From the NCBI RefSeq assembly GCF_036346855.1, contig NZ_CP107841.1:9924001-9988000 (forward strand): a DNA stretch of 64,000 bases. The letters run 5' to 3'. The notes under the pieces were generated by a model. That model was given only the letters and a program-made list of their open reading frames with translations, did no database searches and was not told where the DNA came from. The DNA is from Streptomyces europaeiscabiei. Lineage in GTDB: Bacteria; Actinomycetota; Actinomycetes; Streptomycetales; Streptomycetaceae. This document shows, piece after piece, positions 5,932 to 25,195 of the stretch. How positions within the stretch are numbered: position 1 is the first letter of the stretch; every line of letters starts with the position of its first letter. Position numbers and translations under genes: made by a program.

Positions 5932-6852
5932 CTAGAAGCTGCCGTAGTTGACCTGCCAGGTCGGCAGGCCCATGCGGCGCCACACGGCGACCACCCGGTC
6001 GCGGTCGTCGAGGGAGACCCGTACGGCGAAGCGGTGGCGTACATGCCGGTCGAAGAGCTCGGCCTTGACCACGTCGTCGCGGCGCTGATCACCGGCGGCG
6101 CGCATCCACAGCTCGTCGTACGGGACCTCGTGCGCCCGCAGCCACGCCTCCGTCCGGCCCCGGTGCTCCTCACCACGCCCCGAGAGCAGGACGATGACAT
6201 CGCCGTCGGCGCTGCGGAAGGAGCGCAGCGCCCCGCGCACCGAGACGTTGAGCAGGTCCTCCTCGCAGCGCGTGAAGTCGTAGGCGCCCCGGTCGCCCCT
6301 GAGCGCGAGGGTGCCGTCGATGTCGCACATGACCGCGGAGGGAAGCGCCGGGTCGGCGGTGTACGGCTCGACGGGGGGCTGGTCGTTCAGCCACTCCGCG
6401 GTGAGCCGCCAGCCGCCCTTGCGGGACTTCGCGTGCTTGTCGGCGAGGATCCGGATGATCTCCTCGCCGACCGGCCGCTCCCGCTCGGCGTCGCGCCGCA
6501 GGCACTCCTCCACGGGCACGTCGGTGAAGTCGTGCACGACGAAGGTGGCCAGCCCCGCCACGGCCGCCTTGAGCCGCTTCGGGATGTGCGGCGTCATGTG
6601 CGTGTTGTCCACCACGACGTCGAAACCGCCGTCGACGGCCGCCCGCACCGCCGCGTCCTGGATCGCCAGCACGGTCTGCTCGTGCGCGTACGACCGGCGC
6701 TCGGCCCCCTCGGGCAGCGGGACGTCGAGCATCGCCCGCAGATCGTCGAGGTTGACGCGGCGCATCCGCCCCTCGGACTCCGCCTGCAGCTTGCGCGCGG
6801 CGGTCGTCTTCCCCGAGGCGGGGAGGCCCGTCATGACGTGTACCACGGGCAC
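5932..6852 (-). CDS. T4 Pnkp-like polynucleotide 5'-kinase/3'-phosphatase
   Basis: The 306-residue protein has two catalytic halves in the order of phage T4 polynucleotide kinase. The N-terminal kinase has P-loop GLPASGKT (residues 9-16). The C-terminal HAD phosphatase has DIDGTLAL near residue 175 and ends with a DDRDRVVAVWRRMGLPTWQV stretch, closely resembling the T4 C-terminus. It should phosphorylate 5'-OH ends and remove 3' or 2',3'-cyclic phosphates to prepare broken RNA for ligation. GTG at 6852 lies two bases after the ligase stop, and GAGGAG inside the ligase end serves as ribosome binding site, so the pair is translationally coupled. A ligase partner next door supports RNA repair over DNA processing. 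Confidence 0.85.
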   Translation of the reverse strand: MPVVHVMTGLPASGKTTAARKLQAESEGRMRRVNLDDLRAMLDVPLPEGAERRSYAHEQTVLAIQDAAVRAAVDGGFDVVVDNTHMTPHIPKRLKAAVAGLATFVVHDFTDVPVEECLRRDAERERPVGEEIIRILADKHAKSRKGGWRLTAEWLNDQPPVEPYTADPALPSAVMCDIDGTLALRGDRGAYDFTRCEEDLLNVSVRGALRSFRSADGDVIVLLSGRGEEHRGRTEAWLRAHEVPYDELWMRAAGDQRRDDVVKAELFDRHVRHRFAVRVSLDDRDRVVAVWRRMGLPTWQVNYGSF

Positions 6853-6854
6853 GG

Positions 6855-8063: not shown

Positions 8064-8330
8064 GTGTTCCTCCCCTTGGTGGTCCCCGATTGTCACGTGG
8101 GGGAGGATCTGAGGACAGCGGTTTTTCCACGGGCCGACCAGGGGATGTGCCCTGCTCCCGTGTGACGGCGATCGGTAGTTGGCCCCGCCGATCGGTAGTT
8201 GGCCCCGAGGCGGTCTGTGATCGCGACCTTTTGGTCATCTGAGGAGATCGCCGTGTGGTGCAGATCAGCTGCTGCTCTTCCTGATGCGTGCATGCGAGAG
8301 GCGGGGTGCGGTCGGAGCGGTGCGGGCAGG
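8064..8330. other. promoter-side spacer of the RNA repair operon with insertion-sequence-like end repeats
   Basis: This stretch has no convincing gene. It should carry the promoter of the ligase/kinase operon, but no clear -35/-10 pair is visible; GACAAT about 30 nt upstream of the ligase ATG is the best -10-like string. It also contains two tandem 20-bp copies (8169-8188, 8189-8208) that resemble the terminal repeat of the mobile unit starting at 8331. Confidence 0.5.
8161..8208 (+). repeat. extra copies of the mobile-element end motif
   Basis: TGTGACGGCGATCGGTAGTT at 8161 closely matches the left end of the downstream element (TGTGACTTTGATCGGTAGTC at 8331). The 20-bp unit beginning CGATCGGTAGTTGGCCCC is then repeated in tandem at 8169-8188 and 8189-8208. 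These look like transposase-binding sites or the residue of an earlier insertion of the same element family. No short direct repeat was found around 8161, so only the 8331-9185 unit has defined borders. Confidence 0.6.
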
Positions 8331-9185
8331 TGTGACTTTGATCGGTAGTCGGCGGGTGCCGCAGCCGGACCGGCTGGTCGCGTAACGTCCTTGATCTCTG
8401 GTTGGCGGGTTCTTCGACTGATGGTCGGCGGTTCGGAGACCGTGATCCGTGACTCAACGTGAGGAGGTCTCCGCCCGCCGACGTGGATCAGAAGTGCGTT
8501 GCGATGCCGTGAACGCGGCGGAGTTGTGCCATGTCGTGACGATCGCGTTCCGAGGGCTCGTAGCCCTGGTGGAAGTAGACCTGCTGTTCGGCGGACAAGC
8601 ACGCGACTGACGTCCCATGGACGGTGCCCGTCACGAAGCACGAGGACGGGTAGGTGAATGGACGCTCGGGTTCGGGTGACGCCTGCACTGCTGAGCCGTC
8701 GTCGGCGAAGACCAGCGGGTGCAGGTCGATCTCTCGTCCGTCCGGTGCCGTCACCACGAATCGGATGGGCCTCCAGTTCAGGGTCTCCACGAAACCGACC
8801 TCATGGAGGGCCGCCACCACAACGTCTTCCTGGTCCTGCCGGTGCATCAGGTCCAGGTCCCGATGGGTTCGCGTCTGCTCGCCGACCAGAGCGTCGATCC
8901 CCCATCCTCCGCCGATCCAGACGTCCGCATTCGCCTGTCGTAGCAGGGCCAGGACGAACAACACGTCTTCAGCTGTCATCACCTGACACAGGCTAGAAGC
9001 GTCCGCCCAGTGCCGCGAACGTTTTCCTGTCAGCCTTCCGCTGGCTGGTGGTGGCAGGGGCGAGCTCGGCGTGCGCAGCAAGAACACATCTTCGAAGTTG
9101 ACCGCACCCACAGTCACCCGGACCGATCGCCCGCCCCCAAGAATCAAATCCGCCAACTGACGATCAAAGGACGATCAAAGTCACA
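8331..9185. mobile_element. 855-bp transposase-less mobile cassette carrying an lnu-like gene
   Basis: The left end 8331-8344 reads TGTGACTTTGATCG. The right end 9172-9185 is its perfect reverse complement, giving 14-bp terminal inverted repeats pointing inward. Partial similarity (GTAGTCGGCGG against GTCAGTTGGCGG) continues inside both ends. Immediately outside lies GCAGG at 8326-8330 and again GCAGG at 9186-9190, a 5-bp direct repeat as expected for target-site duplication. The only gene inside is the nucleotidyltransferase at 8488-8979; there is no room for a transposase. This matches a mobile insertion cassette, moved in trans by a related insertion sequence. The repeats are seen directly; mobility is inferred. 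Confidence 0.75.
8488..8979 (-). CDS. lincosamide nucleotidyltransferase-like (LnuA/ANT-fold) protein
   Basis: The 163-residue product matches the length and motif order of small Lnu(A/C/D)-type enzymes: WIGGGWGIDALVG (residues 21-33), HRDLDL (39-44, with metal-binding Asp41 and Asp43), a WRPIRFVV strand, EIDLHPLVFADDGSAVQA, CLSAEQQVYFHQGYEPSERD and a final DMAQLRRVHG helix. Such enzymes transfer AMP to lincomycin or clindamycin; related ANT folds modify aminoglycosides, so the substrate is not proven. ATG at 8979 is the first Met of the homologous region, with only a weak AGGTG close by; the longer frame to 9156 runs into the right terminal repeat. It is the sole gene in the 855-bp mobile unit, which implies acquisition. 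Confidence 0.75.
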   Translation of the reverse strand: MTAEDVLFVLALLRQANADVWIGGGWGIDALVGEQTRTHRDLDLMHRQDQEDVVVAALHEVGFVETLNWRPIRFVVTAPDGREIDLHPLVFADDGSAVQASPEPERPFTYPSSCFVTGTVHGTSVACLSAEQQVYFHQGYEPSERDRHDMAQLRRVHGIATHF

Positions 9186-9300
9186 GCAGGGGCTCCGACC
9201 CGCGGGGACTGCTTCCACGCCGCCTTCTCGGCGCCTGCTCCGCCGAATGCCGTGCGCCGGAAGCCGCTACTGGCCGACCGGCGCACGGACCCGTGGCTCG

Positions 9301-11862
9301 TCACCGCCAGATGGACTTCAGACGCCACGCCTGCATGTGGTTGAGGGTGGCGGTGCCGCCTTCGGCGAAGACCTCGACGCCGGTGCCGGCGGGGTCGGGG
9401 AAGATCTGGTCGGTGATCACGGCCTCGCCGTTGCCGCCGAAGACCTCGACGGAGGACCAGTCGACGAGGATCCGCAGTTTGACCTTGCCGTTCCTGGGCT
9501 TCAGGGGTGCCGTCTGGACGCCGGGGAAGGTGCTGTTGAAGTCCACGGCGCCGGAGCGGGTGCGGTCGACGTACAGCTCCTGTGTCGTGCTGTCGTAGCC
9601 GATGACGGTCTCCTCGCCGTTCGCGCCCGTGCGGACCTTCAGGCCGAAGCGGTCGGCGTCCTCGAGGGAGAAGGTGGCCTCGATGTCGAGTGCTTTGCCC
9701 TTGGCCGCGGGGCCGATCAGGGGCTTGGAGGTGCTCTTGACGGTGACGTCGGATGCGGTCGCCGCCGGGCGGTTGTGGCGGAGGGAGTCCAGGCTGCCCA
9801 CCGGCTTGCTGGTCAGCCGGATCCGGCCGTTGATCGTGCGCAGTGCCATTTCCCGGGGAATGCTCTGCGCGCTGCGCCAGGGGGAGGTGGGGATGGACTG
9901 GCCGTAGTCCCAGTTGTTCATCCAGCCGATCATGTAGCGCTTGCCGCCCGGTGCGTTCTCCCAGGACACGGCGGCGTAGTAGTCCTTGCCGTAGTCGGTC
10001 CAGTCGGCGCGCTGTACGACGGACTTGGCGGGCTTGTCAGCGGTGGTGAACCGGTCGGCCATGACGTGGCCCCAGCCGGCGGAGTTCATGTCGCCGACCT
10101 GGATCTGCGCCTTCTTGCCGGCGTACGGGCGCAGGTCGAAGGACGCCCAGTCCAGGCCCTCGCTGTCGGCGCCGGTGGCGCTGCGGACGACCTCGCCGTC
10201 GACGAGCAGGTTGACGGACGTCTCCTGGGAGACGCGCGGGGCCAAGGCGTCGGACAGCATGATGTGGTCGACGTTGAGGTGGCCCCAGCCGCCGCTGTTG
10301 TTGTCGACGATTCTGATCTGCGCCTTCTTGCCGGCGAGTTCACCGACGTCCCACGAGGCCCAGTTGAGTGCCTCGCCGTCCTTTCCGGTGGAGCTGCGGA
10401 CGACCTGGCCGTCCACGAGGAGCTCGACGGCGGTGGGGTTGTCGGAGTCGGCCGGGTGGTTGCCGCCGCCGATGAGGAAGTTGATGTGCTTCTTGTCGAT
10501 GGTGAACTCGGGCGAGGTGAGTGTGCCCGTGGTCGAGTCGCCGTTCAGGAAGGTGTTGACCAGCCCGTCTCCCAGGAATCCGGAGACCTGCCCCTGGTCG
10601 GGGAGGGTGCCGGTGGCCGGTGCGGTGCCGAAGGCGTCCCCGGTCGCCGTCCAGTCGCCGTAGCTGCCGCCTTCGAAGTCGGCGAGGACCGTGCCCTCGG
10701 GCGGAGTTGTGTCCATAACGGTTCCGGCCTCGTGCGGGTGACGTCCGCCGCCGACCTTGAAGTTCAGGTAGGGGCTGTCGACGGTGAATTCGGGTGAGGT
10801 GAGGGTGCCGGTGGCGCCGTCACCGCCGTGGAAGCTGTTGGCGAGGCCCTTGCCGTCGAAGCCGGTGACCGCCCCCTGCCAGTCCACCGCCCCGGTTGCC
10901 GGTCCCTGACCGAACGCGGTGCCGGTGGTCGTCCAGGAACCGAAATCGGTGCCCTCGAAGTCCTGCACCACCGTGCCGGTGGGCGGGGTGTAGGTGCCCT
11001 TGTCGTCGGCGGTGAACTTCTTGCCGTCGAAGTCACCGATGAAGTACTGCGAGCCCGAACCGCCCGCGATACCGCCGGGGTTGATGTTGACGACCAGGAC
11101 CCACTTGATCTTCTTCTTGTTCCCGTCGACCGCGAGGGGGAACAGGTCGGGGCACTCCCACACACCGCCGGTCGCGCCGGCCGGCCCGAACTCGCTCTGC
11201 AGCTTCCAGTCCTTGAGGTTCTTGGACGAGTAGAACTGCACCTTGTGCTCGGTGGACAGCGACACCGTCATCAGCCAGCTCTGGGTCGGCGCGTACCACT
11301 GGACCTTGGGGTCGCGGAAGTTGTTGGAGCCGATGTCGATGACGGGATTGCCCTGGTACTTGGTCCAGGTCCGGCCGCGGTCGGTGCTGTAGGCGAGCGA
11401 CTGGGCCTGCTTGCCGCCGTTCTTGTAGGCGCTGGTGTAGATCGCCACCATGGGCGGGTTCTTCTTCGTACCGAAGCCGGTGGTGTTGTCCCGGTCGACG
11501 ACCGCGCTGCCGGAGAACACCATCTCCTCGTCGTCGTGCGACAGGGCGAGCGGCAGCTCCTTCCAGTGCACGAGGTCCTTGCTCACCGCGTGGCCCCAGG
11601 ACATGTCGCCCCAGGAGTTGCCGTTCGGGTTGTACTGGTAGAAGAGGTGGTACTCGCCCTTGTAGTAGACAAGGCCGTTGGGGTCGTTCATCCAGTTCTT
11701 CTCCGGGGTGAAGTGGAACTGGGGCCGGTAGGTCTCGGTGTACGGCGGGGTGTCGGCAGCTACGGCCTGGGGGGCGAGCGGGGCTGCGGACAGGGCGCAG
11801 ACGGTCGCCACCGCCGCCATCATCCGTATGCGGGCATGCCGGGATACGCGTGCAGAGCTCAT
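9301..11862 (-). CDS. secreted GH32 levanase/fructanase with nested inserted modules
   Basis: The 853-residue protein has a signal peptide cleaved near AVAADTPP (about residue 37). The GH32 five-bladed propeller carries nucleophile Asp60 in WMNDPNG, RDP at 183-185 and acid/base Glu236 in WECPD. A C-terminal beta-sandwich (about 690-853) follows. Between propeller segments lies an insert (about 294-607) with an A(first half)-B(complete)-A(second half) arrangement: FEGTDFGSW to GGGRHP, then FEGGSYGDW through GGWGHLNVDHIMLSD, then LLVDGEVVRS to GWGHVMADRF. It should cleave extracellular levan or inulin. ATG at 11862 follows AGGAGA. It is divergent from a LacI gene with operator-like palindromes between them. 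Confidence 0.88.
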   Translation of the reverse strand: MSSARVSRHARIRMMAAVATVCALSAAPLAPQAVAADTPPYTETYRPQFHFTPEKNWMNDPNGLVYYKGEYHLFYQYNPNGNSWGDMSWGHAVSKDLVHWKELPLALSHDDEEMVFSGSAVVDRDNTTGFGTKKNPPMVAIYTSAYKNGGKQAQSLAYSTDRGRTWTKYQGNPVIDIGSNNFRDPKVQWYAPTQSWLMTVSLSTEHKVQFYSSKNLKDWKLQSEFGPAGATGGVWECPDLFPLAVDGNKKKIKWVLVVNINPGGIAGGSGSQYFIGDFDGKKFTADDKGTYTPPTGTVVQDFEGTDFGSWTTTGTAFGQGPATGAVDWQGAVTGFDGKGLANSFHGGDGATGTLTSPEFTVDSPYLNFKVGGGRHPHEAGTVMDTTPPEGTVLADFEGGSYGDWTATGDAFGTAPATGTLPDQGQVSGFLGDGLVNTFLNGDSTTGTLTSPEFTIDKKHINFLIGGGNHPADSDNPTAVELLVDGQVVRSSTGKDGEALNWASWDVGELAGKKAQIRIVDNNSGGWGHLNVDHIMLSDALAPRVSQETSVNLLVDGEVVRSATGADSEGLDWASFDLRPYAGKKAQIQVGDMNSAGWGHVMADRFTTADKPAKSVVQRADWTDYGKDYYAAVSWENAPGGKRYMIGWMNNWDYGQSIPTSPWRSAQSIPREMALRTINGRIRLTSKPVGSLDSLRHNRPAATASDVTVKSTSKPLIGPAAKGKALDIEATFSLEDADRFGLKVRTGANGEETVIGYDSTTQELYVDRTRSGAVDFNSTFPGVQTAPLKPRNGKVKLRILVDWSSVEVFGGNGEAVITDQIFPDPAGTGVEVFAEGGTATLNHMQAWRLKSIWR

Positions 11863-11988
11863 GGTGTCTCCTAGTCCCGCGGCTCGTCGGCGCAGCACTG
11901 ACTGCGGCCCCGGCGCGGGCGGACCGAAAAGTGACATCCCAGCGGCGTCGACGTCCACGCAGCCGACTGGGGTGTCAGCGACGACGAA

Positions 11989-12044
11989 TGTCATCGATGA
12001 CAGCGAGTGCCCGATTATGAAGGGCAATCCGGCCGGCGCGTCAA
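11989..12044 (-). promoter_or_regulatory. levanase promoter with palindromic LacI-type operator
   Basis: On the minus strand TTGACG (12044-12039) and CATAAT (12019-12014), spaced 19 nt, form a plausible sigma-70-like promoter, rare in this GC-rich window. Just downstream lies the perfect 14-bp palindrome TGTCATCGATGACA at 11989-12002, with the central CG typical of LacI-family operators. A repressor there would block the start region. The leader to the ATG at 11862 would be about 130-145 nt. The divergent LacI gene at 12404 is the obvious candidate regulator. Confidence 0.55.
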
Positions 12045-12280
12045 CGGTACGTGCGTGATTGTTCCGGGACGGCTCTGCGGTCCGTCAGGCGTCGTCGGCG
12101 GTCGGCAGCCGCGCCAATGAGCTCGGCCACGGCGGGTGGGAGTCGGCAACCGCGCAGGTCAGAGCGGTGGCTCGGGTGGCAGCGGCAGGTTTCCGCGGCC
12201 TCGTGCGAGACCGAGATCGGCTGCGTTAACGAGTTGTTTCCGGGGTGTTGACCGGTGAGGCCTCTCGGTGCTTCACTTCC

Positions 12281-12324
12281 GGAACCGGTTCCGAAACCGG
12301 TTCCGGGACTGCTTCCGGTACCGG
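12281..12324 (+). promoter_or_regulatory. three operator-like AACCGGTT palindromes upstream of lacI
   Basis: GGAACCGGTTCC at 12281-12292 is a perfect palindrome. GAAACCGGTTCC at 12293-12304 follows at once, and TCCGGTACCGG around 12314-12324 is a third related half-site pair. All have a central CCGG as LacI-family operators often do. They lie 80-120 bases before the LacI start, with TGTACGAT just downstream as a possible -10. Autoregulation is inferred. Confidence 0.5.
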
Positions 12325-12403
12325 TTGCACGGGTCTCTGTACGATCGGGCCTTCGGTGCGGGAGGGAAGTCTTCCGCCTCTGCAAGAAGGGAGGGGAGGT
12401 GAC

Positions 12404-13417
12404 ATGGGAGTCACTATCGCCGACGTGGCCACGCGGGCCGGGGTCAGCAAGACGACGGTCTCGCGGGTGCTGAACGCCAAGGGCGAGATCAGCGAGGACA
12501 CCGTCTTGAAGGTCCGCGACGCGATTTCGGAGCTCGGCTATGTGCCGAGCGCCGGGGCAGTGGGGCTGGCACGCGGCACGACCCAGATGATCGGCATGCT
12601 GGTCCCTGACCTGGCCTGGGCCTGGGCCGGCATCGTGCAGGCGGTCGTCGAAACGCTGGAGGCCGAGGGCTTCGGACTGCGCATGCTGACCGTGAACGGC
12701 GGTGAGGAGTCACTGCGCAGGCTGGGCCTGCAGGTCGCCGCCAAGTCGTTCGACGGCCTGCTGGTGATAGAGCCCGAGGGGGCCCTGGCAGCCATCACGG
12801 AACTGCACGAGGCCGGACTGCCGGTGGTGCTGATAGACGACCGCTTCCAGCGGCCGGGATTCCCCTACGTGGCCACCACCAACCGAGAGGGCGGTGAGCA
12901 GGCGGCGCGCCACCTGCTGGACCTCGGCCGCCGTCGCCCTCTGGTGGTGACCGGTCCCGAGGAGTACGGCTGTACTCAGGAACGGCTGGGCGGCTTCGTC
13001 GACGTCTATGCGCAGGCCGGGATCGAGCTCGACCCGCGCAGCCTCATCGGCGGTGACTTCCTGTTCGAGACCGCCCGGAGCGCGGTGGCGCAAGCTCTCG
13101 CGGACGGCGTGGACTTCGACGCGGTCTTCGGGCACAACGACCCCTCGGCGGCCGGCGTGCTCGCGGCCTTGCACGAGGCCGGCCTCAGGATTCCGCGGGA
13201 TGTCGCCGTGGTGGGCTTCGATGACGTCGAGCTGGCGTCGTACACCTATCCGGCCTTGACCACCATCCGCCAGCCGATGCGCGAAATGGGTGAGGCAGCG
13301 GCGCGTCTGCTGCTCGACCACGTGCGCAGATCGCCCGAGGCCGCCCCCTCGCGCGTCATTCCCACCAGCCTCGTGATCCGCAGCTCGACGTTACAGCCCG
13401 AGCCCGAACCGATCTGA
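12404..13417 (+). CDS. LacI-family transcriptional regulator of the fructan locus
   Basis: The 337-residue protein has an N-terminal LacI HTH (VTIADVATRAGVSKTTVSRVLN, residues 3-24). It is followed by a hinge helix region and a periplasmic-binding-protein-like effector domain (IGMLVPDLAW, GLLVIEP, VVLIDDRF, AVFGHNDPSAAGVLAALHEAG, VAVVGFDDVELASY). ATG at 12404 is preferred because GAGGGGAGG precedes it; the longer frame to 12245 crosses the operator palindromes. It sits between the secreted levanase and the sugar importer/glycosidase operon, so it probably represses both in the absence of a fructan-derived sugar. The effector cannot be read from the sequence. Confidence 0.88.
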   Translation: MGVTIADVATRAGVSKTTVSRVLNAKGEISEDTVLKVRDAISELGYVPSAGAVGLARGTTQMIGMLVPDLAWAWAGIVQAVVETLEAEGFGLRMLTVNGGEESLRRLGLQVAAKSFDGLLVIEPEGALAAITELHEAGLPVVLIDDRFQRPGFPYVATTNREGGEQAARHLLDLGRRRPLVVTGPEEYGCTQERLGGFVDVYAQAGIELDPRSLIGGDFLFETARSAVAQALADGVDFDAVFGHNDPSAAGVLAALHEAGLRIPRDVAVVGFDDVELASYTYPALTTIRQPMREMGEAAARLLLDHVRRSPEAAPSRVIPTSLVIRSSTLQPEPEPI

Positions 13418-13424
13418 CGTCATC

Positions 13425-13450
13425 GCGAGGCGCACATGATGGCGCCTCGC
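13425..13450 (+). terminator. hairpin terminator after lacI
   Basis: GCGAGGCGC at 13425-13433 pairs perfectly with GCGCCTCGC at 13442-13450 across an 8-base loop, 8 bases after the LacI stop. No T-run follows, as is common for actinomycete terminators. Confidence 0.6.
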
Positions 13451-13811
13451 GGTCGGGCGGTGTGTCGCCGGTGAGTGACGCACCGCCCCTGTCTCCCCGA
13501 AACCCCGGCGGACCTCTTCGGCCTCGCCTTCCTCGCACCACGTAGCAGCTGCGCCCGCGTTCACACGGCGGCGCCCACCAGCACCTTCCGCTCGCGCGCT
13601 CCCGATCCGGGACACCGAACGGCGCGCCTGGCACACCCCGCCCGGCCCCTACCCACTCCGCGTCGGATGCCCCGGCCGCGCCCTGCGGCTGACCGCCGAT
13701 GCCGCTGTCACCGCGGACGGACCCCACCCGTGCGCCGGCCCATCCGGGCGTCCGCCCGCTCTCACCCTTAGCCCCCCGCGCCTGTATCGCTCAACGGCAA
13801 GGAGCCGCATC
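13451..13811. other. gene-free region before the sugar importer operon
   Basis: About 360 bases separate the lacI terminator from the importer start. It should contain the importer promoter. No clear -10/-35 pair, no copy of either LacI-type palindrome and no convincing small gene were seen; the ribosome binding site AAGGAG just before 13812 is clear. Confidence 0.5.
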
Positions 13812-15110
13812 ATGCGTATCACCACCCGTCACGCTGTCAGAACCGTCCAGACCCTGTGCGTCACCGTCACGGCCGCCCTGGTGGCCACCGGCTGTGGCCG
13901 GAGCGAGGACTCCGGCCCCGGCAAGGACGCACCCGCCGAGATAGCCGCGGGCAAGGCCAAGGGGACCGTGGTCATGTGGTCCATGGGCGACCCCGACGAG
14001 GACCTGAAGGAGCTGGCCAAGAAGTTCGAGCAGGAGAACCCGGACGCGACCGTCAAGATCACAGCGGTCCCGTGGAGCGCCGCCCACGACAAGCTGACCA
14101 CCGCGGTCGCCGGTGGCAACACCCCGGACATGTCCATGGTCGGGAGCACCTGGATGGCCGAGATGGCCGCCATGAACGCCTTCCAGGCCACCCCGGCGTC
14201 GATCAAGGCGTCGGACTTCTACCCCGGCCAGTGGGGCACCACCAAGTACAAGGACACCTCCTACGGCGTCCCGTTCATCGCCGACACCCAAGCGATCTAC
14301 TACCGGACCGACATCACCACGAAGGCCGGCATCAAGGGCGCCCTGGCGGGCGACCGGGCCGGATACCTGAAGGACCTGGAGGCCATCCAGGCCACCGCCG
14401 GCAAGGAGAACCCCAAGCTGCGCCACGCCAGCGGGCTGGTGATGGGCTTCAACTCCTGGATCTTCTGGGTGCCGATGGTGTGGCAGCAGGGCGGTGACAT
14501 CTACGACGCCAAGACCGGGAAGTTCACCTTCGACTCGCCCGAGGTCGCCAAGGCGCTGGAGTACTACGCGAGCGTCCCGAAGCAGGGCCTGGCGCCGACC
14601 GACAGGTCGGACAACGTGCAGGGCTTCAGGGACGGGCTGATCGCCGTCTACCAGGAGGGTGCGTGGGCCGGCGGCAGCTTCCACAAGGACGCCCCGGAAC
14701 TGGACGGCAAGTGGAAGACCATGCCGGTGCCGTACTCCGAGCAGCCCTCCGGGTTCGCCGGCGGCAGCGACCTGGCGGTGTTCAAGGACGCCAAGAACCC
14801 CGACGCGGCATGGAAGTTCGCCCAGTTCCTGACCGAGCCCGCCAATCTCGCGGCCTATTCCAAGGCCACCGGCAGCCTGCCCCCCGCGCCCCAGGCGTGG
14901 ACGGAGGGCAAGCTGACCGAGGACGAGAACATGAAGGCGTTCGCCGAGCAGCTCGAGGTCAGCAAGGCACCGCCCGCCATCACGACCTGGCAGCAGATCG
15001 CCGACGCCATCGACTCCGAACTGGAGAAGCTGATCCTCGGCAAGGCCGGCGTCGCCGAGGTGCAGAAGACGCTGCAGTCCAAGGCCACCAGTATCGGCAC
15101 GGGCCGCTGA
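13812..15110 (+). CDS. sugar ABC transporter substrate-binding lipoprotein
   Basis: The 432-residue protein is a CUT1-type extracellular solute-binding protein. It has an N-terminal lipoprotein signal with lipobox ALVATGC (Cys28 the anchor) and then the family-1 pattern: GTVVMWSMGDPDEDLKELAK, DKLTTAVAGGNTPDMSMVGS, YGVPFIADTQAIYYRTD, and a late block FAGGSDLAVFKDAKNPDAAWKF in overlapping short pieces. It should bind an oligosaccharide at the cell surface and pass it to the two permeases that follow at 15145 and 16138. Its position beside levanase, GH32 and GH3 genes suggests a fructo- or gluco-oligosaccharide. AAGGAG precedes the ATG. Confidence 0.88.
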   Translation: MRITTRHAVRTVQTLCVTVTAALVATGCGRSEDSGPGKDAPAEIAAGKAKGTVVMWSMGDPDEDLKELAKKFEQENPDATVKITAVPWSAAHDKLTTAVAGGNTPDMSMVGSTWMAEMAAMNAFQATPASIKASDFYPGQWGTTKYKDTSYGVPFIADTQAIYYRTDITTKAGIKGALAGDRAGYLKDLEAIQATAGKENPKLRHASGLVMGFNSWIFWVPMVWQQGGDIYDAKTGKFTFDSPEVAKALEYYASVPKQGLAPTDRSDNVQGFRDGLIAVYQEGAWAGGSFHKDAPELDGKWKTMPVPYSEQPSGFAGGSDLAVFKDAKNPDAAWKFAQFLTEPANLAAYSKATGSLPPAPQAWTEGKLTEDENMKAFAEQLEVSKAPPAITTWQQIADAIDSELEKLILGKAGVAEVQKTLQSKATSIGTGR

Positions 15111-15144
15111 GCGCCACCGCCAAGAGCACCCCTCGTAGGGACGG

Positions 15145-16131
15145 ATGACATCCATGTCCACGAATACGCTCCCCGGGCGGGGCGACACGGGCAAGCAGAA
15201 CACCGGAGGGCCGGAGCGGAGTGCCGATCGCCGACGCCTCACGTTCCGGAGCCCGGCGCGCGGCAGGCAGGCCCGGGCCGCCTGGCTCCTCGCCGGTCCC
15301 TTCCTCGCGCTGTTTGCGGCCTTCATGCTGCTGCCGGTGGTGTGGTCGCTGCTGATGAGTCTGACCGACACACAGAGCGCGGACCTGCGCACCCCTTTGA
15401 ACGTGTCGTTCGTCGGCTTCGACAACTACGTGCGGCTCTTCCAGGACGATCAGTTCTTCACGGCCCTGCGCAACACCGCCGTGTTCGTCCTGGTGGCCCT
15501 GCCCCTCACCCTGGCGGCCGGGCTCGCCGCGGCGGTCGCCCTCGACCGGGGCATCCGCCGCTTCCGGGCCGTCTTCCGGGTCGGCTTCTACCTCCCGGTG
15601 ATCACCAGCATCGTGGCCGTCGCCGTGGTGTGGAAGACGCTCCTCGAACCCCGCGCGGGACTGGTGAACCTCGTCCTGGGCTGGTTCGGGATCGACGGCC
15701 CGGCCTGGCTGGCGGACACCCGCTTCGCCCTGCCCGTCATGATCCTGATGGCCGTATGGCGCAACCTGGGCACCGTCATGATCATCATGCTGGCCGGGCT
15801 GCAGTCCGTGCCCCAGTCCCTGATGGAGGCGGCAGAACTCGACGGCGCCGGGCCCTGGCAGCGGTTCTGGCGCGTCACCTTCCCGCTCCTGCGTCCCGCC
15901 CTGCTGCTCACCGCCGTCACGACCGGCATCGGCTACCTGCAGTTCTTCGACGAACCGTTCGTCATGACCGACGGCGGACCGCTGGACTCCACCCTCTCGG
16001 CCACCTTGTACGCCTACAAACAGTTCGGCAACGGCAACTACGAGATGGCGTCGGCCGCCAGCTACGTCATCTTCGTCCTCATCGTGGCGCTGACCGTGCT
16101 GCAGTTCCGCGTGCTGCGAGACAAGGACTGA
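15145..16131 (+). CDS. sugar ABC transporter permease (MalF/UgpA type)
   Basis: The protein of about 328 residues has six hydrophobic segments after a polar N-terminus (first one AAWLLAGPFLALFAAFMLLP). It carries the EAA loop near its C-terminal third (SLMEAAELDGAGPWQRFWRV), which contacts the ATPase. Two starts are possible, ATG 15145 and ATG 15154; AGGGACGGATGA lies across the first, so 15154 may be the true one. It pairs with the permease at 16138. No ATP-binding gene is present, so a shared MsiK-like ATPase encoded elsewhere is expected, as known for Streptomyces CUT1 importers. Confidence 0.88.
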   Translation: MTSMSTNTLPGRGDTGKQNTGGPERSADRRRLTFRSPARGRQARAAWLLAGPFLALFAAFMLLPVVWSLLMSLTDTQSADLRTPLNVSFVGFDNYVRLFQDDQFFTALRNTAVFVLVALPLTLAAGLAAAVALDRGIRRFRAVFRVGFYLPVITSIVAVAVVWKTLLEPRAGLVNLVLGWFGIDGPAWLADTRFALPVMILMAVWRNLGTVMIIMLAGLQSVPQSLMEAAELDGAGPWQRFWRVTFPLLRPALLLTAVTTGIGYLQFFDEPFVMTDGGPLDSTLSATLYAYKQFGNGNYEMASAASYVIFVLIVALTVLQFRVLRDKD

Positions 16132-16137
16132 TGCCTC

Positions 16138-17025
16138 ATGAGCACCCTCTCCACTCTCCCCACGGCACAACCGGGCACGGACCGTATCCTGCGGCGCCGC
16201 CGCATCCGCCGGACCTGGGGTCAGCCCTGGCTGTATCTGCCGCTCGCCGGCGCCCTGCTGCTGATGATCGCGCCGTTCCTGTGGATGCTGTCCGGGTCGT
16301 TCAAACCCGAGGCCGACATCCGCAGCGTCCCGCCCGTCCTGCTCCCCACGGCGCCCACGACCGCCAACTACGGTGAGCTGTTCAGCACGCTCGACTTCAC
16401 GAGCATGTTCGTCAACTCCGTGATCGTGGCCCTCGCCGTCACCGCCGGGAACCTCATCTTCTGCTCGATGCTCGGATACGCCCTGGCCAAGCTGGAGTTC
16501 CGCGGACAGCGCGCCGTTTTCCTGCTGGTCATGGGGACGCTCATGATCCCCGGGCTGGTCACCTTCGTTCCCCTGTACGTGCTGGTGTCCAACATGCAGC
16601 TGACCGGGTCCATGCTCGGGCTGATCCTGCCGTTCCTGGCCGGCCCCTTCGGGGTGTTCCTGATGCGGCAGTTCATCTCCACCCTGCCCGACGAGCTGAT
16701 CGACGCCGCCCGCGTCGACGGCTGCCGCGAACTGGCCATCTTCGCGAAGATCATCCTGCCGCTGACCAAGCCGGCCCTCGCCACCCTCGGGATCATCACC
16801 TTCCTCGGCTCCTGGAACAACTTCCTGTGGCCCCTGGTCGTGGCCCAGAACGAGAGCCAGTACACCCTCCCCGTCGGCCTCGCCCTGGCCAGCAGCGGAC
16901 AGTCCTTCACCCGCTTCGGCATCCTGCTCGCCGGCGCCGTGATCGTCCTGCTGCCGGTGATGATCGTCTTCCTCCTCTTCCAGCGCCAGTTCATCGCCGG
17001 CATCGCCACCACCGGCCTGAAGTGA
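16138..17025 (+). CDS. sugar ABC transporter permease (MalG/UgpE type)
   Basis: The 295-residue protein has six predicted membrane segments and the EAA loop in the form LPDELIDAARVDGCRELAIF. It starts 6 bases after the upstream permease stop, so the two are co-translated and should form the heterodimeric channel. The C-terminal segment LLPVMIVFLLFQRQF then AGIATTGLK is typical of the MalG subgroup. It belongs to the same operon as the lipoprotein at 13812 and probably the GH3 gene at 17213. Confidence 0.88.
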   Translation: MSTLSTLPTAQPGTDRILRRRRIRRTWGQPWLYLPLAGALLLMIAPFLWMLSGSFKPEADIRSVPPVLLPTAPTTANYGELFSTLDFTSMFVNSVIVALAVTAGNLIFCSMLGYALAKLEFRGQRAVFLLVMGTLMIPGLVTFVPLYVLVSNMQLTGSMLGLILPFLAGPFGVFLMRQFISTLPDELIDAARVDGCRELAIFAKIILPLTKPALATLGIITFLGSWNNFLWPLVVAQNESQYTLPVGLALASSGQSFTRFGILLAGAVIVLLPVMIVFLLFQRQFIAGIATTGLK

Positions 17026-17212
17026 CACCTCTGCTCCCACCGCGCCGCCCCCTGCCGCACCGGTTCCGTCCGGGGCGGCGGGCAGGCAGCGCGCGAGCCC
17101 CGCCGCGCCGGTCCGAGCTCCACCACGGCAGACGGCAGCGTCCTTGCGACGAAGCGCTCGAAGTCGCCAACCAACTCTCTTACCTGTGACGACTCATCTC
17201 TTGGAGAACAAC

Positions 17213-19510
17213 GTGGGACAGCTGGTCCGCTCTGCGGCGTACCTGGATCCGGAATCATCCGTGGAAGCGAGGATCGAGGATCTGCTGTCACGGATGACCC
17301 TGCCGGAGAAGGTCGGGCAGCTGCTGATGCTCGACGCACAACACGGGGACCTGGCCGACATCGTGTCGGCCAAACTCGCCGGATCGGTCCTGCACGTGTC
17401 TCCCGAGCTGATGCCGCAGGCCATGGAACTGGCCGGGCGGACACGGCTCGGCATTCCGTTGCTGACAGCCGACGACGGCATCCACGGCCACTCGTTCTGG
17501 CCGGGCGCCACCATCTTCCCGACACAGCTGGCCATGGCCTGCACCTGGGACCCCTCCTTGCTCCACCGGGTGGCACGCGTGGCCGCGACGGAGATCGCGG
17601 CGACCGGAATCCACGGGACGTTCTCCCCGGTGCTGTGCATCACCCGGGACCTGCGCTGGGGCCGGATCAACGAGACGTTCGGCGAGGACCCGTTCCTGAT
17701 CGGTGAACTCGGGGCGGCGATGGTGCGCGGCTATCAGGGCGAGGGCCTCAGCGACCCGACCGCCGTGCTGGCGTACGCCAAGCACTTCGCGGGCTACTCC
17801 GAAACCATGGGCGGGCGCGACGCGAGCGAAGCCGATCTCAGCCCGCGCAAGCTGCGCTCGTGGTTCCTGCCCCCGTTCGAGCAGGCGGTCCGGGCCGGCT
17901 GCCGCGGCTTCATGCTCGGGTACCAGTCGATCGACGGCGTGCCCATCACCGCGAACCAGTGGCTGATCAACGATGTGCTCAAGGGCGAGTGGGGCTTCAC
18001 CGGGACGCTGGTGACCGACTGGGACAACGTCGGCCGGATGGTCTACGACCAGCGAACCTGCGCCGACCACGTCGAGGCGGCGGCGGTCGCCGTCAACTCC
18101 GGGAACGACCTCATCATGGCCACGCCGCAGTTCTTCGAGGGCGCGCAGGAGGCGGTCGCCCGCGGCCTGGTCGAGGAGAAACAGATCGATGACGCGGTAC
18201 GGCGGGTTCTGCGGCTGAAGTTCGAGCTCGGACTCTTCGAGGACCCCCGCACCCCCGACCCCGAACGGCAGGCGCAGGTGATCGGCTGCCGCACCCACGC
18301 CGACCTCAACCTCGAAACAGCCCGTCGTTCCCTGGTGCTGCTGCGCAACGAGGGCATCCTGCCCTTCGAGGGCGGGCTGACCTCGGACGGAACCGGCCGC
18401 GCCGGGGGCCAGGGCACCCCGCGGACGATCGCGGTCATCGGCCCCAACGCCGACAGCCCGGAAGCCATGCTCGGCGACTGGGCGGGCGCCACCGGCCAGG
18501 TCCCGTGGATGCCCGAAGGCCATCCCCGCGAGACGGTGGAGACGGTGCTCGACGGCCTTCGCGCCGTCGCACCCGCCGACTGGACCGTCGCGCACGCCCG
18601 CGGAGCCGACATCGCAAGCCCCGCCCACGCCCCCGAGTGGTCCACCGGGCCAGACGGCCAGCCGCTGCCGCCCGTTTTCACCCCCGCCCCGGTCGATCAG
18701 GCGCAGCTTCGGGAGGCTGTCGCCGCAGCAGCGGCCGCCGACTACGCCGTCGTGGTCGTGGGGGACAGCATCGCCCTCACGGGCGAGACGCGCTCGACGG
18801 CCACGCTCGACCTCCAAGGAAGCCAGATCGCTCTGCTGGACGCGGTCGCCGCCACCGGCACCCCCGTGATCGTCGTACTGGTCCAGTCGAAGCCGAGCGC
18901 TCTCCCGGAGTCGGCACTGAACGCGGCAGCACTCATCGAGGCGTTCAACCCGGGCATGCGCGGTGGCCGCGCGATCGCCGAACTCCTCCTCGGCCTCGTC
19001 GAACCCAGCGGCCGGCTCCCGGTCTCCTTCGCCCGCCACGTCGGGCAGCAACCGGTCTTCTACAACCAGGTGCGAGGCCAGCACGGGGAGCGCTACGCGG
19101 ACCTCACCCAAGACCCGTTGTTCGCGTTCGGCGAGGGCCTCACCTACACCACCGTCACCTACTCCGACCTCGTCGTGCACGCTCCGGACGTCCCCGTCGA
19201 CGGCACCGTCGACGCCACGGTGCGCCTCACCAACAGCGGCAGCCGTCCGGCTCTGGAAACGGTCCAGGCGTACATCAGCGACCTGACCACCAGCGTCACC
19301 TGGGCCGAGCAGGAGCTGATGGGATTCACCCAGGTCTCCATCCCTCCCGGCGAAAGCCTGGACGTCCACCTCGGCATCCCTGCCGCGCAGTGCTCACTCG
19401 TCACGGCCGACAACCGCCGAGTGGTCGAAGCAGGTGAGTTCATGCTCCGCGTCGGCCCCAGCTCACGGCGGGAGCACCAGCTGAGCGCGGGATTCCGCAT
19501 CCGGACCTGA
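17213..19510 (+). CDS. GH3 beta-glucosidase/exo-glycosidase (cytoplasmic)
   Basis: The 765-residue protein has no signal peptide. The GH3 TIM barrel shows LTADDGIHGHSFWPGATIFP, RDLRWGRINETFGEDPFLIG, AYAKHFAGYSE and the nucleophile context TLVTDWDNV (Asp269). It is followed by the alpha/beta sandwich (IAVIGPNADS, DYAVVVVGDSIALTGE) and a C-terminal fibronectin-like domain. GTG at 17213 is chosen because TTGGAG lies 6 nt upstream; the frame to 17144 runs through a spacer with no site. It probably hydrolyses imported beta-linked gluco-oligosaccharides, so the locus may not be for fructan alone. About 187 bases separate it from the permeases. Confidence 0.88.
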   Translation: MGQLVRSAAYLDPESSVEARIEDLLSRMTLPEKVGQLLMLDAQHGDLADIVSAKLAGSVLHVSPELMPQAMELAGRTRLGIPLLTADDGIHGHSFWPGATIFPTQLAMACTWDPSLLHRVARVAATEIAATGIHGTFSPVLCITRDLRWGRINETFGEDPFLIGELGAAMVRGYQGEGLSDPTAVLAYAKHFAGYSETMGGRDASEADLSPRKLRSWFLPPFEQAVRAGCRGFMLGYQSIDGVPITANQWLINDVLKGEWGFTGTLVTDWDNVGRMVYDQRTCADHVEAAAVAVNSGNDLIMATPQFFEGAQEAVARGLVEEKQIDDAVRRVLRLKFELGLFEDPRTPDPERQAQVIGCRTHADLNLETARRSLVLLRNEGILPFEGGLTSDGTGRAGGQGTPRTIAVIGPNADSPEAMLGDWAGATGQVPWMPEGHPRETVETVLDGLRAVAPADWTVAHARGADIASPAHAPEWSTGPDGQPLPPVFTPAPVDQAQLREAVAAAAAADYAVVVVGDSIALTGETRSTATLDLQGSQIALLDAVAATGTPVIVVLVQSKPSALPESALNAAALIEAFNPGMRGGRAIAELLLGLVEPSGRLPVSFARHVGQQPVFYNQVRGQHGERYADLTQDPLFAFGEGLTYTTVTYSDLVVHAPDVPVDGTVDATVRLTNSGSRPALETVQAYISDLTTSVTWAEQELMGFTQVSIPPGESLDVHLGIPAAQCSLVTADNRRVVEAGEFMLRVGPSSRREHQLSAGFRIRT

Positions 19511-19627
19511 AGCCCTCAACCGGGCCTGAAGACCCCCGCCCCGTCGGCCCGCCGCCCCGCGAACCAGAGGGCCGGCGGGGCGGGACCCATCCGACCCGGC
19601 CGCTCTGACATACGGAAAGGCACGCGT

Positions 19628-21100
19628 GTGTCCACCTCACCCCGCGATCCGCACCACCCCGTCGCGCACCTGCGCCCGCCCCGCAACTGGATCAACGACC
19701 CCAACGGGCTGGTCTTCCACGACGGCTACTACCACGTGTGCTACCAGTACAACCCGTCCGGAGCGACCCACGCGAACATGCACTGGGGCCACTTCCGCAG
19801 CCCCGACCTGCTGACCTGGGAGCCGCTGCCGATCGCCCTGTCCCCGAACCCCGACGGCGTGGACGCCGACGGCTGCTTCTCCGGCAACGCCGTCTCCGAC
19901 GGCGACCGGCTGGTCGCCTTCTACTCCGCGCACCGCGAGGACCGCTCGTTCCAGCACCAGCCGGTCACCTGCGCCATTTCCCACGACGGCGGCAACAGCT
20001 TCCGCCCGCGCGGCGAACTGCTCATCCCCGAGCTGCCCGAGGGCTGCGCCATGTACCGCGACCCGTACGTCTGGCAGGACGGCGACGGCCGGCGGATGCT
20101 GGTCGGCGCCGCCCTCGCGGACGGCCGCGCCGCCGCCCTTCTCTACGACTCACCCGACCTGGAGAACTGGACCTACCGGGGGCCCTTCGCGGCCCGCCGT
20201 CCGGAGCCCATCGGTGGTACCGACCTGCTCACCGGCGAGGGCTGGGAATGCCCCCAATACCTCCCGGCAGCCGACGGACCCGGCGCCCTCATCGTCAGCA
20301 CCTGGACCGAACCCACCGGTCCGCAGAGGGTCGCGGCCCTGATCGGCGAAGAACATGACGGCCACTTCGAGGCCGGCCCAGCGGTACTCGCCGACCACGG
20401 CCCCGACTGCTACGCGCCCGCTCTCCTGCGCGCACCGGGAAACCGGTGGCTGCTGTGGGGCTGGTCATGGGAAGCCCGCGACGAAGCCTGGGCCGTCGCG
20501 GACGGATGGGCCGGCGTCCTCACCCTGCCCCGCGAGATCCATGTCCACGGCGACGGCACACTGCGCCAGCAGCCCGCCACCGAACTGCTCGCCCTGCGCG
20601 GCGAACACACCATCCACGCCGAAGGCGCGACGCACGGCCCGCAGCCGGTGGACCTCGGCAGCGTGGGCCGCGCCTTCGACCTGACGGCCCGTCTGGAGCC
20701 GACCGGAAACGCCGGTCTGCGGCTGCTCACCACCCCGGACGGCTCCGAGTACCTCGACATCCGCCTCGATGCCGACGCGGGCGAACTGGTCGTCGACCGT
20801 GACCACGCCTCACTGGATACTCGGGCCCGCGGCGGCTCCTACCGGATGCCCTGCCCCATTGGTCAGGCGGTCGAGCTGCGCGTGGTCGTCGACCACTCCA
20901 TCGCCGAAATCTTCCTGACCACCACCGGCCAGGTCCTCACCCTGCGCTTCTACCCCACAGGGCAGAGCCCGTGGCGACTTCAGGCCCGCACCGCCCCGGG
21001 TACGCGCCTCGGCTTCGCGGTCGACGCGTGGGAGCTGCACCCGCTCGTGATCAAGGAGCCGAGCACCGGCGCCGCAGAGCCGGCTCCGGCGGCGCCGTAG
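19628..21100 (+). CDS. GH32 fructosidase (sucrose-6-P hydrolase/beta-fructosidase type), cytoplasmic
   Basis: The 490-residue protein has no signal peptide. It carries the GH32 triad: nucleophile Asp in NWINDPNG (residues 20-27), YRDPYV and acid/base Glu in WECPQYLP. A C-terminal beta-sandwich ending near residue 470 and an Ala/Pro-rich tail follow. It should release fructose from short fructo-oligosaccharides brought in by the importer, while the secreted GH32 at 9301 does the extracellular step. GTG at 19628 follows GGAAAGG; GTG 19626 is out of frame. It forms a co-directional cluster with GH3 and GH30. Confidence 0.88.
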   Translation: MSTSPRDPHHPVAHLRPPRNWINDPNGLVFHDGYYHVCYQYNPSGATHANMHWGHFRSPDLLTWEPLPIALSPNPDGVDADGCFSGNAVSDGDRLVAFYSAHREDRSFQHQPVTCAISHDGGNSFRPRGELLIPELPEGCAMYRDPYVWQDGDGRRMLVGAALADGRAAALLYDSPDLENWTYRGPFAARRPEPIGGTDLLTGEGWECPQYLPAADGPGALIVSTWTEPTGPQRVAALIGEEHDGHFEAGPAVLADHGPDCYAPALLRAPGNRWLLWGWSWEARDEAWAVADGWAGVLTLPREIHVHGDGTLRQQPATELLALRGEHTIHAEGATHGPQPVDLGSVGRAFDLTARLEPTGNAGLRLLTTPDGSEYLDIRLDADAGELVVDRDHASLDTRARGGSYRMPCPIGQAVELRVVVDHSIAEIFLTTTGQVLTLRFYPTGQSPWRLQARTAPGTRLGFAVDAWELHPLVIKEPSTGAAEPAPAAP

Positions 21101-21190
21101 AACCGACTCCAACCGGTCGATCCCCCACCTCGGCAATGTCCCACCCGCTCTCCCAAGTACTGAACAAGCAGGTCCGAAGGAGGATCTTCC

Positions 21191-24127: not shown

Positions 24128-24175
24128 CCCCGGCTTTCCTGTAGGGCGACCGTCGACCTTTGCCCCCGGCGCAGA

Positions 24176-24242
24176 GGAAGTGCCTCTTGTCGGCGGGAAC
24201 AGGGAGTGCTGATGTCCTTGTTCCCGTGGACGAGGCACTTCC
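24176..24242. terminator. 67-nt near-perfect hairpin downstream of GH30
   Basis: The outer arms 24176-24186 and 24232-24242 pair perfectly over 11 bp. The inner arms 24194-24205 and 24215-24226 pair 11 of 12 with one G-T. It begins 48 bases after the GH30 stop, so a terminator role fits. The long two-part stem is larger than usual, and a small dispersed repeat or IS-related palindrome is also possible. Confidence 0.55.
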
Positions 24243-24284
24243 GGGTGCCCGTGGCGACTTCGAGCCCGCAGCGCACCGAGTACG

Positions 24285-24660
24285 CGCATCGGCTATGCCG
24301 TCGACATCCGCGTTGCCGGACAGCAACAGGCCCACGACGGGTTCGCCGAACCCGACCCGGCCGTGGTCGACGAACCCATCAGCGGGTCGTGCCCAAAGGT
24401 CTTCTTCCAGGTCGCGGCGGCGTCCTGCTTCTCGGAGTGCGCCAGGACGAGGGCGCCATCCAGGGTCCACGATCACATGCTCACCCGCGTCCGGCGCCGC
24501 TTCACCGGCCAACCGCCAGACACAGTCGCGCACTTCGGCGCGGGCGGTGCGCAGCGCGGCCAGGGCCCGCTGCCCGCGCCGACGACAGCTTGCTCATCAG
24601 TCGGCCGTGTTCGGGTCGGAGGCCACCCGCCCCGAACACGGCCACCAAGGACCTCGACAA
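24285..24660 (-). pseudogene. IS1380-family transposase relic (frameshifted, truncated)
   Basis: Reading the minus strand in shifting frames recovers transposase segments in the right order: ALRTARAEVRDCVWRLAGEA then APDAG, a motif VIVD, then in another frame LDGALVLAHSEKQDAAATWK and KTFGHDPLMG, and in a third frame FVDHGRVGFGEPVVGLLLSG then NAD. The AHSEK and GFVDHG blocks are typical of IS1380-type DDE transposases. At least two single-base frame changes and loss of both ends make it non-functional. The limits given are approximate. Confidence 0.65.
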
Positions 24661-24686
24661 TCCTCATTCTTGCTGGTCAGAGGGGA

Positions 24687-24743
24687 TTCTAGTTTGTCTG
24701 ACCGTCCGTCGGACATACGCTGCCTGAAAGCGTGAAACTAGAA
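24687..24743. repeat. inverted repeat TTCTAGTTT / AAACTAGAA
   Basis: Perfect 9-bp arms at 24687-24695 and 24735-24743 enclose 39 bases that contain an imperfect palindrome (TGTCTGACCGTCCGTCGGACA region). It lies between the transposase relic and a decayed zinc-ribbon gene. It may be a relic operator (TetR-like) or an insertion border; neither can be shown. Confidence 0.35.
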
Positions 24744-24838
24744 GGACAGGGCTCGCTGGGGCCACCTGTCGATCCTCACGGGGGACAACTGCAGATCCTC
24801 GCAGCTCGCCGACCTCATCGACGCCCGAGGGCACGGGG

Positions 24839-25195
24839 TCACCTATCGATCGAAGTCACATCCCGGGCCTGCCGCTCCAGGAACTTGATCAGCCTGACCT
24901 CGCTCCGTACGAGGCGTTCTCGCTCGTCGTCGGGCAACGAGGCCGACGGGTCGACGATGACCTGTGTGCGGGGCACATGGACCATCGAGCCGCAGTAGAT
25001 CCGGCAGCCGGTACACCACGCGAGCCCGATGCAGCGCTCGAACCAGGCGGACTCGGGCGGGTAGAAGCGATACTTGTACGAGCGGACGGGCGTCCGGCAG
25101 TCGGCACAGACCCGCCGGTCCCCGTCGACGACCGTGTCCCAGGTCGCGACCTTTCGCCAGATCAGCCGCTCGTTGTGTGCTCTTCAAGTCGTCAT
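24839..25195 (-). pseudogene. small cysteine-rich (zinc-ribbon-like) protein gene interrupted by TGA at codon 4
   Basis: One frame runs from ATG at 25195 to the stop at 24839-24841 and would encode 118 residues. The fourth codon (25184-25186) is TGA. The remainder reads RLIWRKVATWDTVVDGDRRV then CADC, RSYKYRFYPPESAWFERCIG then LAWCTGCRIYCGSMVHVP, and a charged helical tail. Two CxxC pairs (CADC, CTGC) suggest zinc binding. The coding quality after the TGA is good, so the stop may be a recent nonsense mutation, a sequence error, or translation may start downstream at CTG. The function is unknown. Confidence 0.6.

Follow-up and report, generated by a model that had tools for sequence, protein, structure and literature searches.

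A single-gene cassette with Tn7-like ends nested within a larger transposon of Streptomyces europaeiscabiei

Analysis of a 64,000-nt stretch of the chromosome of Streptomyces europaeiscabiei (NZ_CP107841.1, assembly GCF_036346855.1, positions 9,924,001-9,988,000; hereafter the window) revealed an 855-bp unit which is very probably a non-autonomous Tn7-like element, i.e. a mini-Tn7-like mobile insertion cassette that would be moved in trans by the TnsABC(-TniQ) proteins of a related transposon. This reading is supported by the architecture of the ends, the target-site duplications, a copy of the cassette at a second site, complete autonomous relatives and the nesting of the unit within a larger transposon. 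The features of the window are summarized in Table 1; genomes and loci are denoted by G and L numbers, respectively.

Table 1. Features of the putative cassette and of the transposon enclosing it (positions in the window)
Feature	Position	Strand	Remarks
Putative Tn7-like single-gene cassette	8331..9185	.	855 bp; ends and duplications; also present at a second site, bordered there by another duplication
Target-site duplication GCAGG, left copy	8326..8330	+
Target-site duplication GCAGG, right copy	9186..9190	+
L-type end of cassette	8331..8431	+	iterons at offsets 0, +53, +76; profile 82.4 bits, the window being one of the 7 building sequences of the profile
R-type end of cassette	9139..9185	-	iterons 0/+20 in relatives, shifted here by the 11-bp tandem duplication (9159-9180)
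Passenger gene, PF10706 nucleotidyltransferase (Lnu/ANT(2'')-like), 163 aa	8488..8979	-	E 1.1e-64 to PF10706; E 3.3e-27 to 4fo1
Larger Tn7-like transposon enclosing the cassette	8161..24860	.	16,700 bp; no tns gene detected
Target-site duplication TCCCG of larger transposon, left copy	8156..8160	+
Target-site duplication TCCCG of larger transposon, right copy	24861..24865	+
Truncated R-type end (iterons 0/+20) of larger transposon, with DNA leading to tnsA	8161..8327	+	G108 match: first 27 bp identical, 92% over 142 bp
L-type end of larger transposon	24762..24860	-	profile 20 bits, E 5e-4; end not used in building the model
Cargo: GH32 glycosidase	9301..12027	-
Cargo: LacI-type regulator	12245..13417	+
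Cargo: sugar ABC transporter	13812..17025	+	solute-binding protein (Pfam); two reading frames judged permease-like from inspection alone
Cargo: GH3, GH32 and GH30 glycosidases	17144..24127	+

Boundaries, copies and passenger gene of the cassette

The cassette begins with TGT, ends with ACA and is bordered by 5-bp duplications. Its termini are perfect 14-bp inverted repeats (TGTGACTTTGATCG at 8331-8344 and the reverse complement at 9172-9185), and these repeats, their inward orientation, the GCAGG on both sides and the length of the unit were all found exactly as a preliminary description of this DNA had given them. The 14-bp repeat by itself is unremarkable, since 11 perfect inverted pairs of this length, 300-3000 bp apart, are present in the window, compared with a mean of 9.2 in 60 order-3 Markov sequences. 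A pair with an exact 5-bp direct repeat outside it was found once in the window and in none of the 60 simulations. The assignment was decided by evidence from outside the window, i.e. the identical type of end accompanied by other 5-bp duplications elsewhere.

The cassette contains one credible gene only, and tblastn gave no match to TnsA, TnsB, TnsC or TniQ within it. Inverted repeats, a target duplication, a passenger gene and the absence of a transposase are all features of mobile insertion cassettes, and the proposal of a transposase-less mobile unit in the preliminary description is thereby supported, as it is by the second-site copy with its own duplication. Two features are Tn7-like, namely the 5-bp target duplication (GCAGG here, GTGCG at the second site) and inverted arrays of repeated sites that differ between the ends; TnsA, TnsB and TnsC are not encoded. 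Because no tns gene is present, we regard the cassette as a non-autonomous derivative and not as a Tn7-like transposon proper. A sigma-70 promoter scan of the cassette, which is little informative in Streptomyces, gave no match.

The arrays are composed of a motif (iteron) of approx. 19-25 bp, which is repeated at offsets 0/+53/+76 at one end and, in relatives, at 0/+20 at the other. In the window cassette the right array is less distinct because of a tandem duplication of 11 bp (GACGATCAAAG at 9159-9169 and 9170-9180), which adjoins the right-hand 14-bp repeat and has no counterpart in the six further right ends of the alignment. According to the excerpts of PMC8649781 used here, the left end of Tn7 carries three TnsB sites and the right end four, and unequal arrays mark Tn7-like ends.

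A degenerate three-iteron pattern proved useless in GC-rich coding DNA (it matched 383 of 392 genomes, and the reversed control also matched many), and a profile (R1) of the three-iteron end, built from seven ends of six genomes, was used instead. The profile matched 61 places in 48 of the 392 genomes at E up to 0.001; these E-values are rough, strict filters drop weak matches, and the six genomes that supplied building sequences match by construction. Stretches with at most three mismatches from the end consensus were present in 13 of the 392 genomes, and a pattern search in the collection of named genomes gave four stretches. The right ends of SID12501 and of the lnu cassette of G370 were left out of the comparison of 25-bp ends.

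The cassette DNA matched 106 of the 392 Streptomyces genomes searched (E up to 0.001), and in most of them the match covered only the gene. In G370 a cassette of 992 bp is present at a second site (L058 11886-12877), is 91.6% identical over 823 bp and has its own duplication, GTGCG. Its greater length is due to a 146-bp inverted-repeat element (GGGTGCGTTTCTTCT, L058 11896-12041) inside its left end, which lies between direct repeats containing GTGACTGTT. A further copy, in NBC_01483, has an intact right end and has lost the left one; SID12501 and G343 contain decayed copies at the site occupied in the window. The second copy in the source genome (G000:C1:10526150; L005, L061) is also decayed: the passenger gene is broken, no right end is recognisable, and the copy holds a GNAT acetyltransferase reading frame (PF00583, 32.2 bits). 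In G228 (L060 8038-9400) an R-type end is followed by an extra 150-aa reading frame, which had no Pfam match, and then by a Lnu-like gene; the left end was not recognised at L060, and the unit is possibly a two-gene version of the cassette.

An empty site with a single GCAGG, which the preliminary description had anticipated, was recovered in part. In G104 the right flank is uninterrupted and has one GCAGG, which is consistent with an unoccupied target as judged on the right half, the left half not being comparable. The two flanks were united in none of the 392 genomes, G104 being the only one to give the right half with one GCAGG. Since the left flank of the cassette has been replaced, no empty site can be compared with it on both sides. 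When the DNA around three further cassette copies was searched against plasmids, no empty site was seen among the matches listed (15 of 46, 15 of 55 and 15 of 58 records).

The passenger protein belongs to PF10706 (217.5 bits; cut-off 21) and is related to the lincosamide resistance protein PDB 4fo1, with ANT(2'') as a weaker relative. In the alignment with 4fo1 its Gly-Gly motif and aspartates, which we take to be the catalytic residues, are retained. The cut-off was not reached with any of the curated Lnu models (102 bits of 350 for Lnu(E), 101.7 of 300 for Lnu(A), lower for the others). The preliminary description was right about a single gene of this family, and its term LnuA-like has to be refined, the product being only a distant, Lnu-like relative. 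No resistance claim is made for it because its score lies far under every curated Lnu cut-off.

Autonomous relatives and the enclosing transposon

Ends of this kind were found beside tns genes. In G110 an R-type end that shares 23 of 25 bases with the L end of the window cassette starts 66 bp before an open frame with a TnsA_like_Actin gene (NCBIfam, 118.4 bits; cut-off 110). Next to the tnsA gene comes a tnsB that is broken and gives a weak match to the integrase core; the cassette shares its ends with an element of the autonomous kind, whose tnsA-tnsB pair has decayed.

Plasmid relatives of the G110 tnsB led to TnsA-TnsB-TnsC-TniQ transposons with exact 5-bp duplications at the computed ends: 14 plasmid loci were taken, 12 were tested for end pairs and five paired well (L153 and L155 were dropped, their end pairs being weak). 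In the transposon of Streptomyces sp. NBC_01217 (6458 bp, CGTGT), a 0/+20 array lies beside tnsA and a 0/+53/+76 array at the far end, like those of the cassette. In those of S. nojiriensis (8119 bp, GTCGA), NBC_00455 (7282 bp, ACTCC) and Nocardia sp. NBC_01377 (5778 bp, TCCGG), a 0/+54-55 array lies beside tnsA and a 0/+20 array at the far end, and in that of Kitasatospora purpeofusca (7253 bp, GTGGC) only the 0/+20 end is clear. A complete transposon was also identified in G012 (L244 2624-11124; 8501 bp, GCAGT). It has perfect 25-bp ends with 0/+54/+77 and 0/+20 arrays, looks intact and carries a methyltransferase gene and an APH-family gene as cargo. A 7497-bp element of G272 with the full set of four Tns genes is bordered by perfect 25-bp ends; an exact duplication is absent. 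The architecture in NBC_01217 and G012 is the same as that of the cassette, and the S. nojiriensis, NBC_00455, Kitasatospora and Nocardia transposons are more distant.

The preliminary description had proposed a search for these ends on autonomous insertion sequences; autonomous elements with such ends do exist, and they are Tn7-like transposons. The L end of the cassette agrees with the complete transposons compared in 17-19 of 25 bases only. A complete helper with TTTGATCG-type iterons was not detected; the decayed tnsA-tnsB pair of G110 comes closest. The source genome encodes a single full TnsA, which belongs to another branch and shares 29% identity with that of G110, and one fragment; the stretches around its second and third (partial) L-type ends gave no tns match, and no matching helper was found in the genome. 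When end pairs were sought around 14 tnsA loci with a general repeat search, none was convincing; a pair in G370 (L098) is suggestive. In Streptomyces, dnaE (DNA polymerase III alpha) genes were observed near TnsABC-TniQ operons (L145, L155), and dnaE-like DNA beside a GNAT cassette (L108).

The cassette is nested within a larger element that the preliminary description had missed. Paired R- and L-type ends, the flanking TCCCG and the match with G108 identify 8161-24860 as a Tn7-like transposon without its tns genes; no tblastn match to TnsA, TnsB, TnsC or TniQ was obtained within it at E 1e-5. Its three-iteron end at 24860 (minus strand) was too weak to be listed in the stricter profile scan of the 392 genomes. 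The relative in G108 is a 32,033-bp transposon flanked on both sides by CTGAG, which contains genes for TnsA, TnsB (with an internal deletion), TnsC and TniQ, an APH-family gene, a Lnu-like gene and a sugar operon 94.7% identical to 11284-24678 of the window. At its far end the stretch between the first and third iterons is missing, and extra DNA lies just inside. Above the score cut used, the similarity between the window and G108 ends at the transposon borders, and the outside flanks differ (TCCCG vs CTGAG).

The sugar operon is present at 89-95% identity in G104, G314 and SID12501, and no outer ends were found around it in the stretches examined. G343 retains a two-iteron remnant; the far end was not found. 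Just to the left of the larger transposon (5932-8096), a gene for a T4-type RNA ligase (PF09511) adjoins one for a polynucleotide kinase-phosphatase-like protein (PF25109), perhaps forming an RNA repair pair.

Proposed mode of movement and alternative explanations

We infer the proteins that bind the ends, the mobilisation in trans, the cut-and-paste mode and the order of events as follows. A TnsB-type transposase would bind to both end arrays; once activated by TnsC together with TniQ, TnsA and TnsB would cut both ends of the cassette, which would then be joined into a new target at points 5 bp apart, giving rise to the 5-bp duplication. The Tns proteins would be supplied in trans by a related transposon, the nucleotidyltransferase gene being freight. 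Because the source genome holds only a TnsA of another branch and a fragment, these proteins would have to come from another element, and the cassette is probably dormant in this strain until a helper arrives, e.g. on a plasmid. It would have jumped into GCAGG beside the GH32 gene of the sugar operon, itself cargo of 8161-24860, and the outer transposon would afterwards have lost its tns genes by a deletion ending near the left side of the cassette.

Three other explanations were considered. The unit might be an internal deletion product, i.e. a full Tn7-like transposon that lost its tns genes in place and whose small form never moved alone. The outer 16.7-kb transposon, which is without the tns genes that its G108 relative has, speaks for such a course. 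It is nevertheless improbable, as this compact form also occurs, with 91.6% identity over 823 bp, at an unrelated site bordered by GTGCG, and deletion in place would have to have recurred.

We consider it still less probable that 8331-9185 is a resident block with chance repeats, whose gene is native to its place beside GH32 and has never moved. The same GH32 gene does have a neighbour 75-76% identical to the passenger in G130, G314 and G022 (L175, L176 and L177, respectively), and genes 77-78% identical lie 2-6 kb from it in G099, G350 and G108. However, the adjoining genes are in the opposite orientation, convergent with the GH32 gene, and their match with the cassette extends over the coding part and no more than a few bases; copies of the cassette are present elsewhere with other duplications, which refutes a resident block unless these are separate coincidences; and the simulations gave no inverted pair flanked by 5-bp repeats. 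No cassette or transposon ends were found near the passenger-like genes in the loci of G130, G314, G022, G099 and G350, and the gene of G108 is located inside the 32-kb transposon. Either genes of this type recur as cargo of the region near GH32, or a neighbour of this kind gave rise to the cassette.

Mobilisation by IstA/IstB of a cassette with terminal repeats of the IS21 kind, our initial guess from the repeated ends (which IS21 elements also have) and one to which the five IstB matches in the source genome might be added, was abandoned when the G110 end was found to border a TnsA gene and is scarcely credible, as tnsA-tnsB-tnsC-tniQ operons lie between such ends with exact duplications and no IS21 element with TGTGACTTTGATCG ends was present among the ends followed.

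Known systems and other tns-less units

Small non-autonomous derivatives are well known among insertion sequences and Tn3-type transposons; Tn7-like transposons need three or four proteins. We propose that the window cassette, as a non-autonomous Tn7-like element, is comparable to several described systems, for which excerpts of three reports (PMC3913671, PMC5704250 and PMC8649781) were used. MIC231 of Bacillus cereus and mic-qnrD resemble it in having a passenger gene within inverted repeats, no transposase and a target duplication (PMC3913671). MIC231 differs in being mobilised by a single transposase, that of IS231A, and mic-qnrD in its 24-bp repeats and 2-bp duplication; the excerpts of that report mention neither iteron arrays nor Tn7-like relatives. 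The elements tISCpe8 and MTnSag1, with lnu(P) and lnu(C), respectively, are likewise very small and carry a lincosamide nucleotidyltransferase gene, and differ in that they occur in Firmicutes and have their own DDE transposase of the IS1595 family, 25-bp repeats and an 8-bp duplication (PMC5704250).

The Tn7-like elements of an Actinobacteria-dominated TnsB clade also have inverted arrays of TnsB sites at both ends, cargo for carbon metabolism and resistance, and nested mobile elements (Benler et al. 2021, PMC8649781). The transposons found here likely belong to this clade. As excerpted, that survey seeks ends around tnsB, and tnsB-less elements such as those described here would escape it. 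The main text of a paper on Tn7 target selectors names, by term search, neither Actinobacteria nor non-autonomous elements (PMC10293859). Mobile insertion cassettes with other transposases (PMC3913671), tiny lnu elements with their own transposase (PMC5704250) and actinobacterial Tn7-like transposons (PMC8649781) are already known from the reports excerpted; no description of transposase-less Tn7-like cassettes carrying genes was found in the open-access literature searched by title listing.

The search for end pairs covered 44 of the 61 places matched by the L-end profile. A partner end at least 17/25 identical was found in nine cases (L241, L244, L246, L247, L257, L260, L261, L266 and L274), five of which (L241, L244, L247, L261 and L266) have an exact 5-bp duplication, absent from the other four; the pairing score contained a bonus for a duplication, and the count of five in nine leans slightly that way. 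None of the eight partial matches with an extrapolated start (L242, L245, L254, L255, L256, L265, L271 and L277) paired. L253 and L275 had a duplication but were dropped at 12-14/25 end identity.

When 17 elements were compared with Tns proteins by tblastn, seven gave matches and ten gave none to TnsA, TnsB, TnsC or TniQ. Nine of these ten have an exact 5-bp duplication: (i) the window cassette and the 16.7-kb element enclosing it, (ii) the lnu cassette (992 bp, GTGCG) and the GNAT cassette (906 bp, GCAGG) of G370, (iii) elements of G281 (679 bp, CTTCC), G023 (2455 bp, ATGGC; tail-sheath gene) and G128 (4385 bp, CCGCA; LPMO and sugar dehydrogenase genes), and (iv) two elements without a gene, in G094 (211 bp, ACCCG) and G019 (212 bp, ATCGG). 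The gene-less elements resemble MITEs, from which the window cassette differs in carrying a gene. The tenth unit, of Patulibacter minatonensis (L164 310-4243, reverse strand, 3.9 kb), carries DUF305, ArsR-type and cation-efflux genes and has no exact duplication.

We think it likely that actinomycetes harbour a hidden layer of helper-dependent, tns-less Tn7-like units of 0.2 to approx. 4 kb or more, which hold one gene, a few or none, are mobilised by several TnsABC-TniQ lineages acting in trans, nest within each other, and carry cargo ranging from nucleotidyltransferase and acetyltransferase genes to metal efflux and secreted enzymes. If so, Tn7-type heteromeric transposition would shuttle single genes in a way resembling the movement of mobile insertion cassettes by insertion sequences, and surveys based on tnsB would miss such units. 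The present observations suggest that the machinery of other transposons is borrowed for the spread of single genes in these soil bacteria. Provided that mobilisation in trans takes place, many single-gene insertions in Streptomyces and its relatives, those of resistance-type genes included, would have an unrecognised vehicle, and the 855-bp cassette would be a natural mini-transposon, a compact substrate for actinobacterial genetics. Its nesting illustrates how a sugar operon turns into mobile cargo.

Arrays of the 0/+53-54/+76-77 type were computed in the GNAT, G128, G281 and G019 elements, and 0/+20 arrays in those of G128, G281 and G019; at the right end of the GNAT cassette the second site did not have the top score. 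The ends of the GNAT cassette agree with those of the complete G012 transposon in 23 and 24 of 25 bases, and on this similarity the latter is a plausible helper for the former. In the Patulibacter minatonensis unit, CCGAG is present on both sides only if an offset of 2 bases is allowed.
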